NCBI RefSeq assembly: GCF_003610195.1
Contig: NZ_RAPO01000001.1
Span: 744,001 to 808,000, forward strand
DNA length: 64,000 bases
DNA from: Halopiger aswanensis
GTDB taxonomy: Archaea > Halobacteriota > Halobacteria > Halobacteriales > Natrialbaceae
Direction of reading: 5' to 3'
The position numbers and the translations under genes were made by a program. This document shows positions 23,997 to 29,725 of the stretch, piece by piece. A model generated the notes under the pieces. It was given only the letters and a program-made list of their open reading frames with translations. It was not told the DNA's origin and did not search any database. How positions within the stretch are numbered: the stretch's first letter is position 1; every line of letters begins with the position of its first letter.

Positions 23997-24096
23997 GGTC
24001 GAATCCGCACCGCGCTCGTAGTAAACACTTTGGATCCTTGTCATCACGGCGCAGAAAATGACACGGGTTTAATACGATTCGTCCGGAATGGCCGGT

Positions 24097-24882
24097 ATGC
24101 GCCCCGCCGACGCCCCCGCCATCGAGACCGACGGCCTGACGAAACGCTACGGCGAGACGACCGCCGTCTCGGACCTGACGATGTCCGTCGATCAGGGGGC
24201 CGTCTACGGTTTCCTCGGACCCAACGGGGCCGGCAAGACGACCACGATGCGGATGCTGACGACGCTGACGAAGCCGACGTCGGGGTCCGCCCGGGTCGCC
24301 GGCCACTCGATCGCCGAGCGCGAAGCCGTCGCCCCCCACATCGGCTACCTCCCCGAGGATCCGCCCGTCTACGACGAACTCACCGGCCGCGAACAACTCG
24401 AGTACGCCGCCGGCCTCCGCGATATCCCCGAGGACGAGGCCGACGAGCGAATCCAATCCCTGCTCGAGCGGTTCGACCTGCGGGCCGACGCCAACAAGCG
24501 CATCGAGGACTACTCGAAGGGAATGCGCCAGAAGGTCGGGGTCATTCAGGCGGTCCTCCACGAGCCGGCCGTCGCCTTCCTCGACGAGCCGACCAGCGGG
24601 CTCGATCCCCGGGCCGCGCGGACGATGCGGGACACCATCGCCGATCTGGCCGATCGGGAGATGACGATCTTCCTCTCGACGCACATCCTCCCGGTCGTCG
24701 ACGAACTGGCCGACGAGATCGGCGTCCTCCACAACGGCGAACTCGTCGCCGAGGGCGACCCCGAGACGCTCAAGTCCCGCGCCGAGACCGGCGACGCGCG
24801 GAGCCTCGAGGACGCCTTCCTCGAGGTGACTCGCGAAGAGCCTCAGCACGAGGGGGCGACGGCGGAACCGCCGCTGGAGTAA
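24097..24882 (+). CDS. ABC transporter ATP-binding protein
   Basis: Cytosolic ATPase subunit of 261 residues that likely drives the divergently encoded permease. Walker A is GPNGAGKTTT, the signature motif is in the YSKGMRQKVG segment, Walker B is VAFLDEPTSGLD, and the switch histidine is in STHILP. It belongs to the CcmA/NatA-type exporter group. An ATG at 24088 would add three residues; TTTAATA at 24068-24074 points to 24097 as a leaderless start. Confidence 0.94.
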   Translation: MRPADAPAIETDGLTKRYGETTAVSDLTMSVDQGAVYGFLGPNGAGKTTTMRMLTTLTKPTSGSARVAGHSIAEREAVAPHIGYLPEDPPVYDELTGREQLEYAAGLRDIPEDEADERIQSLLERFDLRADANKRIEDYSKGMRQKVGVIQAVLHEPAVAFLDEPTSGLDPRAARTMRDTIADLADREMTIFLSTHILPVVDELADEIGVLHNGELVAEGDPETLKSRAETGDARSLEDAFLEVTREEPQHEGATAEPPLE

Positions 24883-24924: not shown

Positions 24925-25743
24925 ATGGCCCGTCTCTCACCCGCGACGCTCGCGATCGCAGCACTCGTCGGTCTCGCGAACGTCGGCGTCGTGTTCGCCC
25001 TGTACGCTCGCGGCGACTATCCCGCTCTCGAGCCCACCGCCGAACTCGCCGTCCTCGCGCTGACGACGTTCGTCGTCGGAGTCCTCCCCTGGTTCGCCTC
25101 GGCGCACACGCGTCTGGTGACGCCCGCGCTTGGCTTCCTCGGCGCACTCGCCGGCACCGTCTTCCTCGAGCTCACGACGCCGGCACCCGAGTGGAGCCGA
25201 CTCGGCGAGTACGTCGTCGTCGACGGGCCGACGCACGCCTCGAGTTACGCGAACGCCTGGTACGTCTGGCTGGCTCTGCTGACGGTCGCCGGCGTCCTCG
25301 AGTTCGCGATCAGGCGAGGGTACGGAATCGGCGACGACCGGCTCCGGAACCTGCCGACGCTGCCGTTTTCGCGCGATCGGCTCGTCCGAACGGTCGGCGC
25401 CGTCGCTGCGCTCGTCGGCCTCGCGGCGACGCTGCTGGTGCTACGATCCGGTATTCGGCCGCCTGCTGCCGCGGCCGTCGTATTCCTCTTCGCCGCCGTC
25501 GTCACCGCGATCCCGCTCGCGGCGCTGCTCGCCCGCGGCATCGTGGCACCGACGGTGCTGTTCGCGCTCGTCCCGTACTTCCTTATCTACGAGGTGTTCG
25601 TCACGACCGACAGCCCGCTCCACATCCTCCTGTTCGGCCCCTACGCCGTCGTTCTCGCGCTCGCGTGGGCGCTCGAGGAAGCGATCCGCTCGCGACTGGG
25701 CGGCTGGAACGGCGGTCGGTTCGCCGGTCAGAAGCCGGCATGA
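24925..25743 (+). CDS. Polytopic membrane protein of unknown function
   Basis: 272 residues with about eight hydrophobic segments and no recognised motif. A short loop with WSRLGEYVVVDGPTHASSY lies between helices three and four, and a basic C-terminus (RLGGWNGGRFAGQKPA) probably faces the cytosol. It follows the ABC ATPase by 42 bp, so it may be co-transcribed, although CCTATCC near 24895 could serve as a separate promoter. No function is claimed. Confidence 0.8.
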   Translation: MARLSPATLAIAALVGLANVGVVFALYARGDYPALEPTAELAVLALTTFVVGVLPWFASAHTRLVTPALGFLGALAGTVFLELTTPAPEWSRLGEYVVVDGPTHASSYANAWYVWLALLTVAGVLEFAIRRGYGIGDDRLRNLPTLPFSRDRLVRTVGAVAALVGLAATLLVLRSGIRPPAAAAVVFLFAAVVTAIPLAALLARGIVAPTVLFALVPYFLIYEVFVTTDSPLHILLFGPYAVVLALAWALEEAIRSRLGGWNGGRFAGQKPA

Positions 25744-25806
25744 CTGTCCCGACGCGCGAAGATATTCGGGACAGCGATTATCGGTCGATCCTTCGGACCG
25801 TAGCAC

Positions 25807-26667
25807 ATGGGTTTAGGCAGGCCTAAACCGTTTGCTCGACTCCCGCGCATCGGAGCGGCGCTGCGACCACTTCGACCGCGGGTCGTCCTCGCCCTGTTGC
25901 TGTTCGCGTCGCTTGCGGGGTGTTGGATCGTCGGCAGCCGCGGCGGCGATCCTGCGGCGGTCGTCCGCGAGTGGATCGTCCTGCTCGGGCTCGGCGCGAC
26001 CCTCGGCGGCGTCGGCTGGCGCCTCGTCCTGTATCCGGGTCGCGTCCCGGCCGACGAGGCGTGTCGCTCGTTCGTCGACCTGCGGTACGCGCTGATCGAG
26101 CTGCTGGCCGTCGTCGGGGCCGCGGTCGGCGCCGCAAGCGCCGTCGCAGGGACGATCTCGAGCAGCGGCGGCCCGCACACTCCGCTCCGACCGCTGGCCC
26201 TGAGTACGATCGTTCTCGCGCTCGCCGTCGACAGGGTCGGCGACGGGACAACGGACCGCTGGTGGCGGTTCCTCGCCGTTCTCGGCGGCGCGAGCGCGCT
26301 CACCGTAACCGCCGCCGACCACGTCCTGTCAGTCGGCGGCGGCCCGGTCGACGTCGCGGTTCGCGTCGGCCACCTCGGGGCGTTCGCCGTCTGGTTCGGC
26401 GGCGCACTGTGGCACAACGTCGTGGTCGTCGGTGTCGCCCGCCGCTTCCCGGACAGCCGGGAGCCGCTCCGCGCGCAGGCATTTGCCTTCCGCCGCGTCG
26501 TCGCCGTCTTGCTCCCCGCGGTCGTGCTGACCGGCCTCGAGCAAGCGGCGACGTTCGTAGGAACGACAAGCACGGTCTACCTCGAGACCGTTCCCGGACG
26601 GCTGGTCGTCGCGAAGGCGGGCGTGATCGCCGCGCTGGCGCTTATCGCGGCCACGGCGCGAAAATAG
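25807..26667 (+). CDS. CopD-like membrane protein
   Basis: 286-residue membrane protein with about eight helices resembling the CopD (copper resistance D) family: histidines in the membrane-adjacent segments TAADHVLSV, VGHLGAFAVWFGGALWHN, and a final VPGRLVVAKAGVIAALALI. CopD proteins are linked to copper import or periplasmic copper handling. The ATG at 25807 is supported by TTATC at 25778-25782, 27 bases upstream. Codons 2-8 (GLGRPKP) overlap a repressor-type palindrome, so the operator is part of the coding sequence. The CopD call is moderate. Confidence 0.75.
   Translation: MGLGRPKPFARLPRIGAALRPLRPRVVLALLLFASLAGCWIVGSRGGDPAAVVREWIVLLGLGATLGGVGWRLVLYPGRVPADEACRSFVDLRYALIELLAVVGAAVGAASAVAGTISSSGGPHTPLRPLALSTIVLALAVDRVGDGTTDRWWRFLAVLGGASALTVTAADHVLSVGGGPVDVAVRVGHLGAFAVWFGGALWHNVVVVGVARRFPDSREPLRAQAFAFRRVVAVLLPAVVLTGLEQAATFVGTTSTVYLETVPGRLVVAKAGVIAALALIAATARK
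25810..25829. promoter_or_regulatory. DtxR/SirR-type palindromic operator, copy 1
   Basis: GGTTTAGGC-AG-GCCTAAACC, a perfect 9-bp inverted repeat. It starts three bases after the predicted leaderless transcription start of the CopD-like gene, so a bound protein would block initiation. The core TTTAGGnnnnCCTAAA resembles sites of metal-dependent DtxR/SirR-family repressors. Confidence 0.65.
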
Positions 26668-26679
26668 CCGGTGGTCGAT

Positions 26680-27051
26680 TCAGGGGTCGAACACGCCCCG
26701 TTTCAGCCCCTCGCGGACGGGGTCGTGCTCGGCGTCGGTCGGCGGCGGACTGGTCACGAGCAGCGCCTCGAGGCGCTCGTCCTCGCTCGCCCGGACGCCG
26801 CGGTCGACGTCGGCGGGGACGGTGACGACGTCGCCGGGTTCGACCGCGTGCTCGGCGTCGCCGTCGCGGACGACGCCGGTTCCGGAGCGGACGTGGACGG
26901 CGACGTCGCTGCCCGGCGCGTGGACCGGGATGAACTGTCCGGGTTCGAAGTAGCCGCAGACGACCTTCATGCGATCGGTCTCGAAGACGGTCCGTGCGGA
27001 GAATTTGTCCTCGTTGTACTCCCGTTCGGCGTCGAAGTCAGTTGCTGGCAT
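26680..27051 (-). CDS. Single-domain cupin protein
   Basis: 123-residue beta-barrel (cupin) protein. Cupin motif 1 is approximated by PVHAPGSDVAVHVRSGTG and motif 2 by AVEPGDVVTVPADVDRG. One or two histidines (PVHA, AVHV) could bind a metal. It points toward the CopD-like gene with a 12-bp gap between the two 3' ends. Its upstream region carries the same palindrome as the CopD-like gene, so both are probably controlled by one metal-responsive repressor. Enzymatic role unknown. Confidence 0.85.
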   Translation of the reverse strand: MPATDFDAEREYNEDKFSARTVFETDRMKVVCGYFEPGQFIPVHAPGSDVAVHVRSGTGVVRDGDAEHAVEPGDVVTVPADVDRGVRASEDERLEALLVTSPPPTDAEHDPVREGLKRGVFDP

Positions 27052-27063
27052 GGCTAATCATCT

Positions 27064-27085
27064 CGGTTTAGGGTAGCCTAAACCG
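27064..27085. promoter_or_regulatory. DtxR/SirR-type palindromic operator, copy 2
   Basis: CGGTTTAGG-GTAG-CCTAAACCG, a perfect 9-bp inverted repeat. The minus-strand half TTTAGG lies about 27 bases upstream of the cupin start and may itself be the TATA element. With copy 1 it shares the 14-base flank CCTAAACCGTTTGC on the plus strand. Confidence 0.65.
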
Positions 27086-27241: not shown

Positions 27242-29725
27242 ATGGAGTATCACGAGGCGGCGGACGCGCTTTTCGGTCTGCGACGGTTCCGCCCGAAACC
27301 GGGGACGGAGTCGACCGCCCGACTCCTCGCGCACCTCGGGAACCCACACGAGGACGTCGATTTCGTGCAGGTCGCCGGCTCCAACGGGAAGGGGAGCACG
27401 GCGCGGATGCTCGAGCGGACGCTCCGCGAAGCCGGACTTTCGGTGGGACTGTACACCTCGCCGCACCTCGAGGAACTGCGCGAACGGGTGCGGGTCGACG
27501 GGCGCAAGATCCCCCGCTCGGCCGTCTGCGAGTTCGTCGACTCGGCGCATGACTACATCACCGACCGGGCCGCCGACGGGGAGTCGCCCACGTTCTTCGA
27601 GACGATGACCGCGCTGGCGATCTGGCAGTTCGACCGCGAGGACGTCGACGTGGCCGTCCTCGAGGTCGGCATCGGCGGGAAGTACGACGCAACGAGCGTC
27701 GTCGATCCGATCGCGAGCGCGGTCACCAGTGTCACCTTAGAGCACACGGGCATCCTCGGCGACACCGAGGAGGAGATCGCCCGCGATAAGGCTCACGTCG
27801 CGCCCGACGACGCGCCGCTCGTGACCGGCGTCTCGGGCGAGCCGCTCGAGGCGGTTCGGGACGTCGCCGGAGACGTCGTCACCGTCGGATTCGCGGACGA
27901 CGAGCCCGAACCCGACGTCCGCGTCGAGTACGGCGGCCGGACGAACCACACCGAAGCGGCCGTCTCGATCGACGCCGGCGACTGGGACCTCGAGACGCGC
28001 GTGCCGCTGCCGGGCGAGCACCAGGCCGAAAACGCCGGCATCGCCGCGACGCTCGCGCGGCAGGTCGCCGACGTCTCGACCGACGATATCGCTCGCGGCC
28101 TGCGCAGCGCCCACTGGCCGGGCCGGTTCGAAGTGATCGACACCGAGCCGCTGGTCGTCCTCGACGGCGCGCACAACCCCGGGGCCTGCGAGACGCTCGC
28201 GTCGACGCTCGAGACCTACGAGTACGACGACCTCCGCGTCGTCTTCGGGGCGATGCACGACAAGGACCACCGGGAGATGGCAGCGGCGCTGCCGACCCCC
28301 GACGCCGTCGTCACGGCGGAACCGGCCCTCGACCGCGCCGAGGAGCCGGCCGTCCTCGCCGACGTGTTCGCGGACGCCGGCGTCGCGGATGTCCGGACTG
28401 GGGGTGCCGTACAGGCCGCCCTCGAGGCCGCACTTACCGAGGCCGACGCTGACGACTGCGTGCTCGTCACCGGCTCGCTGTTCGCGGTGGCCGAAGCGCG
28501 CCGGCGGTGGACCCGCACCGAGATCGCGAAGCAGATTCGCGACCGCTCGGACGCCCGCGCGGCGCTCGCGGGTGCGAACGTCCCCGAGGCCAGCGTCCGA
28601 CAACTGAGCGGACAGGGCGTCCACCGCGTCGTCCGCACCCGACTGCAGCGCCGGCAGGCGACGCTGGTGAAGGAGGAACTGCTGCGCGTCGGCGGCGACT
28701 GCGCGCTCTCGGGACTGCAGCGAGACGACGAACCCGTCGACGCCGTCCTGATGGGGACGCTCGCGCAGTTCGAGCGCCTCGTCGATCGTCTCGAGTCCGA
28801 CGCCGACGCGCAGTCGCTGGGGCTCGCCGAACTCGCCGCGGAACTGCGGGGAACGCTCGAGATCGACGCCGCGGACGGCGGCGGTTCGACGGCCGACTCG
28901 GCGGCGTCTCGGTGGCCGTGGTTCGACCGCACCGCCGTCATGGGGATCCTGAACGTCACGCCCGACAGCTTCCACGACGGCGGCGAGTACGACGCCGTCG
29001 ACGACGCGGTCGCCCGCGCGGAGGCGATGGTCGAGGCCGGCGCCGACGTGCTCGACCTCGGCGGCGAGTCGACCCGCCCCGGCGCCGACCCCGTCTCGAC
29101 CGAGGAGGAGATCGACCGCGTCGTCCCCGTCCTCGAGCGCATCCGCGACCTCGAGGTCCCGATCTCGATCGACACGCGCAAGGCCGCCGTCGCCGACGCG
29201 GCCCTCGAGGCCGGCGCCGATATCATCAACGACGTCTCGGGGCTCGAGGATCCCGAGATGCGCTTCGTCGCGGCCGAGCACGACGCGGGCCTGATCGTGA
29301 TGCACAGCATCAACGCGCCGGTCGTCCCGGGACAGGAGGTGACCTACGACGACGTCGTCGAAGACGTCGTCGACCAGCTCTCCGAACGCGTCCTGCTCGC
29401 GGAGAAGGCGGGCGTCGACCGCGAGAACATCGTCGTCGATCCCGGGATCGGCTTCGGCAAGTCGGCCCGCGAGAGCTTCGAGATCCTCGACCGCCTCGAG
29501 GAGTTCCGCGCGCTCGGCTGTCCGGTCCTCTTCGGTCACTCCCACAAGTCGATGTTCACCCACGTCGGCAGCGAAGCCGGCGACTGTCTCGACGCGACGG
29601 TCGCGGCGAGCGCGCTCGCGGCCGACCGCGGGGCCGACCTCGTCCGCGTCCACGACGTCCCCGAGAACGTCGCCGCGGTCCGGACGGCGCTGGCGACGCG
29701 GGACCCGGAGCGCTTCGAGTGGTAG
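27242..29725 (+). CDS. folCP: Bifunctional folylpolyglutamate synthase / dihydropteroate synthase
   Basis: Fusion of two folate-pathway enzymes in one 827-residue protein. Residues 1-~430 are FolC (Mur-ligase fold; P-loop GSNGKGST at 46-53), which adds glutamate to folates. Residues ~430-560 are the extended N-terminal region of archaeal/clostridial-type dihydropteroate synthases (QATLVKEELLRVGGDCALS). From about Met567 (MGILNVTPDSFHDGG) comes FolP, which joins p-aminobenzoate to the pterin. CCTAAAG at 27212-27218 predicts a leaderless start at the ATG. FolC-FolP fusions are known in haloarchaea. Confidence 0.95.
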   Translation: MEYHEAADALFGLRRFRPKPGTESTARLLAHLGNPHEDVDFVQVAGSNGKGSTARMLERTLREAGLSVGLYTSPHLEELRERVRVDGRKIPRSAVCEFVDSAHDYITDRAADGESPTFFETMTALAIWQFDREDVDVAVLEVGIGGKYDATSVVDPIASAVTSVTLEHTGILGDTEEEIARDKAHVAPDDAPLVTGVSGEPLEAVRDVAGDVVTVGFADDEPEPDVRVEYGGRTNHTEAAVSIDAGDWDLETRVPLPGEHQAENAGIAATLARQVADVSTDDIARGLRSAHWPGRFEVIDTEPLVVLDGAHNPGACETLASTLETYEYDDLRVVFGAMHDKDHREMAAALPTPDAVVTAEPALDRAEEPAVLADVFADAGVADVRTGGAVQAALEAALTEADADDCVLVTGSLFAVAEARRRWTRTEIAKQIRDRSDARAALAGANVPEASVRQLSGQGVHRVVRTRLQRRQATLVKEELLRVGGDCALSGLQRDDEPVDAVLMGTLAQFERLVDRLESDADAQSLGLAELAAELRGTLEIDAADGGGSTADSAASRWPWFDRTAVMGILNVTPDSFHDGGEYDAVDDAVARAEAMVEAGADVLDLGGESTRPGADPVSTEEEIDRVVPVLERIRDLEVPISIDTRKAAVADAALEAGADIINDVSGLEDPEMRFVAAEHDAGLIVMHSINAPVVPGQEVTYDDVVEDVVDQLSERVLLAEKAGVDRENIVVDPGIGFGKSARESFEILDRLEEFRALGCPVLFGHSHKSMFTHVGSEAGDCLDATVAASALAADRGADLVRVHDVPENVAAVRTALATRDPERFEW

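Follow-up and report, generated by a model that had tools for sequence, protein, structure and literature searches.

Predicted DtxR-type iron boxes at a cupin gene and a CopD-like gene of Halopiger aswanensis, one of them combined with a denitrification-type site

We propose that two matching palindromes in a 64,000-nucleotide stretch of the Halopiger aswanensis genome (the window, hereafter) are iron boxes of the DtxR family, through which a cupin gene and a CopD-like gene would be repressed when iron is sufficient; that the promoter of the CopD-like gene also carries a NarO-type site; and that the arrangement of the window is a recent one. This reading, which is drawn from sequence comparisons, we hold to be quite probable. 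The features on which the argument turns are as follows.

24088..24882, + strand: ABC transporter ATP-binding protein; conserved neighbour, given for context only
24925..25743, + strand: 272-aa membrane protein with no Pfam match; conserved neighbour, given for context only
25757..25768, no strand: denitrification-type site CGAAGATATTCG, an exact CGAA-N4-TTCG that differs from the published CGAAYATDKTYG by one mismatch; -50 relative to the CopD-like ATG
25777..25782, + strand: ATTATC, a putative TATA-like element picked out by eye, at about -30 to -25 of the CopD-like ATG
25807..26667, + strand: CopD-like eight-helix membrane protein, 286 aa; N-terminus MGLGRPK, probably from an operator-bearing transporter-gene start
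25810..25829, no strand: predicted iron box at the CopD-like gene, with its core at 25812-25827 (+5 relative to the A of the start codon); it supplies codons 3-7 (L-G-R-P-K)
26680..27051, - strand: Cupin_2 protein, 123 aa, under the second predicted iron box
27064..27085, no strand: DtxR-type palindrome, the predicted iron box of the cupin promoter; its core, TTTAGG-N4-CCTAAA, occupies 27067-27082 (-31 to -16 of the cupin ATG)
27242..29725, + strand: fused Mur-ligase-type (FolC-like) and pterin-binding (FolP) gene (folCP), 827 aa, divergent from the cupin gene; conserved neighbour in the family

The cupin palindrome, CGGTTTAGGGTAGCCTAAACCG, has perfect 9-bp arms about a 4-bp centre, and its partner at 25810-25829 reads GGTTTAGGCAGGCCTAAACC. 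Both are present where the initial annotation placed them, and they bracket the CopD-like and cupin genes, which are convergent with 12 bp between them. The shared TTTAGGNNNGCCTAAA occurs exactly at these two places only in the window; with up to three mismatches there are six matches, against a shuffled mean of 1.65. The flank CCTAAACCGTTTGC is indeed present at both sites, but the special meaning given to this 14-base identity falls away, since among 2,964 pairs of box flanks taken from the genome, 4 share eight bases beyond CCTAAA. For a leaderless gene in haloarchaea, one expects the TATA box at about the position of the cupin box core, in agreement with the proposed overlap of operator and TATA region.

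Across the whole genome (4.87 Mb), TTTAGG-N4-CCTAAA is found exactly at 23 sites against 1 for the reversed, composition-matched control, and with at most one mismatch at 39 against 3. The earlier remark that no other copy was noticed is thus right for the window, but it does not extend to the genome. When two mismatches are allowed there are 49 matches and 62 in the control; because the count does not exceed the control, a two-mismatch site proves nothing alone, and the wider search was dropped as stand-alone evidence. The order-wide count, over 117 genomes, is 779 exact boxes against 15 in the control, with at least one box in 110 of these genomes. Gene starts around the boxes were predicted by a simple gene caller made for this analysis, and for 36 of the 39 boxes such a start lies at -40 to +250 nt relative to the box centre; the other three have no predicted start nearby, and none of the 39 lies well inside a predicted gene. 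The initial annotation had named random placement in the genome as the outcome that would speak against an operator, and with 36 boxes near gene starts and none well inside genes, many of them at iron-uptake genes, placement is not random.

The neighbours of the boxes point to iron. A Pfam scan of 20 chosen box-neighbour proteins returned six siderophore-type binding proteins (Peripla_BP_2), along with FecCD, ABC ATPases (one of them FecCD's), SBP_bac_6, ferritin, a DtxR-family regulator, ScdA/hemerythrin and a halocyanin-type copper protein; genes not concerned with iron were also among them, namely DUF proteins, a methyltransferase, a glycosyltransferase and a sensor kinase. For the ferritin gene itself, the upstream box is no better than a two-mismatch one. 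The predicted gene of the DtxR-family regulator (C2:1209558-1209968) is preceded by two exact boxes, and a third follows past its 3' end; its product matches PF01325 and is one of three PF02742 proteins in the genome, of which a single one, another, scores above the cut-off. On these sequence grounds, the palindrome is a haloarchaeal DtxR-type iron box, and the cupin and CopD-like genes are further predicted members of its regulon. The proposal that a metal-regulator-type operator is common to both genes is upheld; a copper response is not indicated by the operator. The likeness to the haloarchaeal DtxR-family iron regulon (Idr1/Idr2, SirR, TroR) lies in palindromic DtxR-type boxes at siderophore and iron ABC transporter genes and in the DtxR-family regulators encoded, and the iron role of these regulators is cited in the available text of PMC11349517 and PMC11218638. 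In the papers on this regulon that our search covered we found no cupin or CopD-like targets and no operator in first codons; the main publications on the regulon (Leyn and Rodionov 2015; Martinez-Pastor 2017, 2024; Schmid 2011) may list such genes.

Four sites in this genome may be noted individually. A Dps/ferritin gene and the DtxR-family gene face each other with their 3' ends, and the exact box between these ends, at C2:1209465 (L031:5466-5481), is not close to any predicted start. Another exact box (C1:520849; L039:3350-4911) stands directly before a gene for a DUF5059-plus-plastocyanin (halocyanin-type) copper protein, which would place a copper electron carrier in the iron regulon. In locus L035 (C5:116000-126000), the gene for a 146-aa DtxR-like regulator (C5:118284) and a NirK gene (C5:124402-125313) are some 6 kb apart, and the stretch that separates them contains an iron box with one mismatch at C5:123151. 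Finally, TTTAGGGGTAGACGGGGCTAAA stands upstream of a SirR-like gene (226 aa; L041, C2:132000-135500); it is a variant of the box in its spacing, which the search pattern did not pick up.

The box of the CopD-like gene was described earlier as lying upstream of the reading frame. It begins instead 5 nt after the A of the ATG and is in frame; since the ATG precedes it, the box encodes residues 3 to 7 (LGRPK). Relatives of the CopD-like protein (E<=1e-10) are found in 16 of 125 genomes of the family, and the only one more than 50% identical (54%) is encoded in Halopiger goleimassiliensis (genome G140, locus L102), where the ABC ATPase, the 272-aa protein and folCP surround an iron box followed by SBP (NMT1_2), permease and CopD genes, without a cupin gene. 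Window positions 25749-25784 match the promoter of this SBP gene in 30 of 36 columns; none of 2,000 shuffles and none of 4,000 random segments from haloarchaea scored as high, and the alignment of the CopD body to H. goleimassiliensis resumes from 25867. In Haloarcula salina (L125), an SBP gene beside a broken CopD relative starts like the Halopiger SBP gene. The box-encoded starts are MGLGRPK in the window, MNLGSPK in Halopiger and MVLGKPK in Haloarcula, so that LGxPK comes in each case from an iron box 2 nt after the ATG. By contrast with these loci, the one in the same-genus genome G251 has a boxed cupin gene (exact TTTAGGATAGCCTAAA at -32) and neither CopD nor SBP.

We propose that the iron-boxed cupin gene beside folCP was there first. 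The CopD-like gene would have joined it later, either bringing along or capturing the promoter, start codon and initial codons of a transporter gene under iron control; the transporter genes that belong to this promoter are missing in the window. A search of the genome for a copy of the transporter SBP gene found none, an empty answer that shows nothing, as the search lacked a positive control. An operator inside the start of a coding sequence would constrain the protein N-terminus in an unusual way.

The same promoter has a second element, which the initial annotation had missed. The -50 site, the ATG and the +5 box have identical spacing in the window and in the Halopiger and Haloarcula SBP genes. 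Compared with the published CGAAYATDKTYG, the window site has one mismatch, the Halopiger site (GGAAGATGTTCG) two and the Haloarcula site (CGAACATGTGCG) one. Upstream of the CopD gene of Natronomonas sp. LN261 (L104), the published motif stands without mismatch at exactly -50, and an iron box at -23. Of two further CopD-like loci, L044 has a degenerate site of this type at -54 and a box at -28, and L046 a degenerate site at -53 and a box at -27; the same position test found no denitrification-type site in L045. The chance of CGAA-N4-TTCG with at most one mismatch at one given position is 0.0014; the exact form occurs at -54 to -46 in 1 of 58 predicted window genes and within 90 nt of 3 of the 39 genome iron boxes. 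As published, CGAAYATDKTYG is a haloarchaeal denitrification motif linked to NarO-type control (PMC11218638, available text). A site of this type lies at -50 of the CopD-like ATG and at -49 to -51 in 22 of 57 cupin orthologs; the window site differs in its one mismatch and in being combined with an iron box, a combination not described in the available text of that paper. The genome encodes three NirK-family proteins (TIGR02376 matches over the cut-off), and among the matches listed the exact motif is found 18 times, counted strand-wise. These data suggest that the CopD-like promoter is a dual iron/denitrification promoter. No earlier report of such a promoter was found in the freely accessible literature searched.

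The product of the cupin gene belongs to Cupin_2 (PF07883; 37 bits, cut-off 27.2), and its PDB relatives, 1v70 and 2q30, are both uncharacterised. Classic metal-binding cupins have the ligands HxH...E and a second-motif histidine. In an alignment of 10 relatives of the window cupin, the HxH of motif 1 reads H-A-P, and only His44 of the classic ligands is invariant among the 10 sequences, so the protein departs from the classic metal-binding type. Orthologs (E<1e-40) occur in 77 of 243 genomes of the order (78 matches), and the promoters of 70 were examined, 13 divergent from folCP, all of these in the Natrialbaceae, the family of H. aswanensis, and 57 others. An iron box with at most two mismatches lies at -28 to -39 in 8 of the 13 folCP-linked cupins and in 0 of the 57 others. 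Five of the eight boxes are exact, one has one mismatch and two have two mismatches; these last are weak because two-mismatch boxes are no commoner than the control. The remaining five folCP-linked cupins have no iron box. In a survey of 32 loci in the family, 13 had a box, 12 of them among the 20 folCP-linked and 1 among the 12 others.

The denitrification-type site shows the reverse distribution. CGAA-N4-TTCG occurs within 150 nt upstream of 28 of the 57 other cupins (at -49 to -51 in the 22 already mentioned) and of 0 of the 13 folCP-linked ones, against a background of 5.8% per window of the same size. A NOR, multicopper (NirK-like) or DUF2249 gene lies within 1.5-2 kb on either side of 27 of the 57, against 0 of the 13. 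Moreover, within the 57, such a neighbour accompanies 21 of the 28 cupins with the CGAA site and 6 of the 29 without it. In a tree of 72 cupins, built on few columns, the 13 folCP-linked sequences group with one other Natrialbaceae cupin (SH-aLRT 81), and the group stands next to a cupin with the CGAA site (support 85). The cupin data thus suggest, and fit, one handover from denitrification-type to iron control. Three cupin promoters (L082, L089 and L098) have a degenerate box, CTTCGGCGAGCCCGAA, conserved in position at -36; it may be a decayed iron box or one of changed specificity.

The -50 site of the CopD-like promoter could still be a chance or inherited but dead sequence, with the iron box alone at work, and we regard this as a possible though rather doubtful account. 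The mismatch to the published motif favours it, as do the two mismatches of the Halopiger version and the degenerate sites of L044 and L046; the exact -50 spacing in four promoters, and the 22 cupin promoters with the site at -49 to -51, speak against it. A broader proposal may be made, on which we are nearly evenly divided, with a little more doubt than trust: the iron regulon would have recruited two accessory proteins with denitrification-serving relatives. The cupin beside folCP would have swapped its -50 denitrification-type site for an iron box, and the CopD-like gene would have kept both, with the operator in codons 3 to 7 (MxLGxPK). The resulting AND gate of nitrate or anoxia and iron shortage would couple iron and denitrification in cis, and may serve, for example, copper or electron supply to copper enzymes when iron is short. 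Iron-uptake genes are reported to fall under denitrification by RNA-seq in the available text of PMC11218638, where the link is called an open question; a dual promoter of fixed spacing, together with a gene family that changed from one site to the other, would make this link testable.

How the boxes would act can be outlined. When iron is sufficient, a metal-loaded DtxR-type repressor would bind both; at the cupin gene it would cover the TATA/TFB region (-31 to -16) and block TBP/TFB, and at the CopD-like gene it would sit on the start of a probably leaderless transcript (+5 to +20) and block initiation. Scarcity of iron would release both genes, and the CopD-like promoter would in addition need, or gain from, a NarO/denitrification-type activator at -50. 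With both elements in place, we infer that this promoter is probably active when denitrification signals and low iron coincide.

Haloarchaeal Idr proteins can both activate and repress, and box positions vary from gene to gene, so the box might be an activator site for the cupin and CopD-like genes; we consider this unlikely, since repressors usually act where these two boxes lie, over the TATA region or the start of the transcript. An MntR/TroR-like regulator that senses manganese or some metal other than iron is quite unlikely, given the siderophore-type and ferric transporters beside the boxes, even though the DtxR family includes manganese regulators and the genome has three candidates.

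A functional two-gene metal-response island, as the initial annotation had it, is likewise improbable. Exact boxes do stand at both genes, and a cupin ortholog is present in 23 of 32 genomes with CopD against 54 of 211 others, so the co-occurrence exceeds chance; it need not, however, reflect a metal-response pair, because relatives of both genes occur with denitrification-type genes. In another three genomes (Natrialba aegyptia, L107/L190/L202; XH8, L113; G289, L200), CopD-TusA and cupin genes also lie convergently side by side, but these pairs belong to other subfamilies, and the L107 and L190 cupins have no iron box. Furthermore, the operator is one of 39 in the genome, and the CopD-cupin pairing is not conserved: G251 has the boxed cupin without CopD, and the H. 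goleimassiliensis CopD gene lies in an operon without a cupin at that place. Lastly, chance palindromes without function have practically no standing, for while two-mismatch matches are at control level, the 23 exact sites against 1 and the conservation in cupin promoters of other genomes refute chance for the exact sites as a class.

We return to the predicted regulon member whose own nature is least clear, the CopD-like protein. Its similarity to CopD (PF05425) is weak, covering residues 228-285 at 20.6 bits, below the 32.1-bit cut-off. Like CopD, it has an invariant His189 and a WxGG motif; it differs in that its predicted fold bears a borderline resemblance to membrane haem-b bundles. The model is an eight-helix bundle (pLDDT 84.5, pTM 0.77) for which Foldseek gave no match at E<=0.001, the best being cytochrome b561 (E 0.077), and VIA-align gave cytochrome bd (Z 13.6, 233 residues, rmsd 4.3), values that are borderline for helical bundles. 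Copper resistance proteins are absent from the fold-search listing, which excludes nothing, and no solved structures were found for the CopD-like profile up to E 10. A haem- or copper-linked redox role would be a guess from this model. Neither the CopD-like protein nor the cupin matched anything over the NCBIfam cut-off, and the 272-aa neighbour had no family in NCBIfam or Pfam (E up to 1).

More widely, an iron-type box (at most two mismatches, within 150 nt) is found in 31 of 54 promoters of CopD relatives, some genomes being counted twice. Many of these boxes are the variant TTT[CT]GG-N4-CCTAA[AT] at about -36 to -42, upstream of CopD-TusA pairs, and many boxes of distant relatives are weak because two-mismatch boxes are no commoner than the control. 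In L047, L051, L105-L119 and others, the variant stands at about -40 of CopD-TusA(-FmdE-like) clusters and perhaps represents a sister DtxR specificity linked to denitrification. In L044, L045 and L053, a CopD-like gene is divergent from a small gene of DtxR-family type with a Cys-rich tail (Pfam basis, L045), and an iron box lies between the two.
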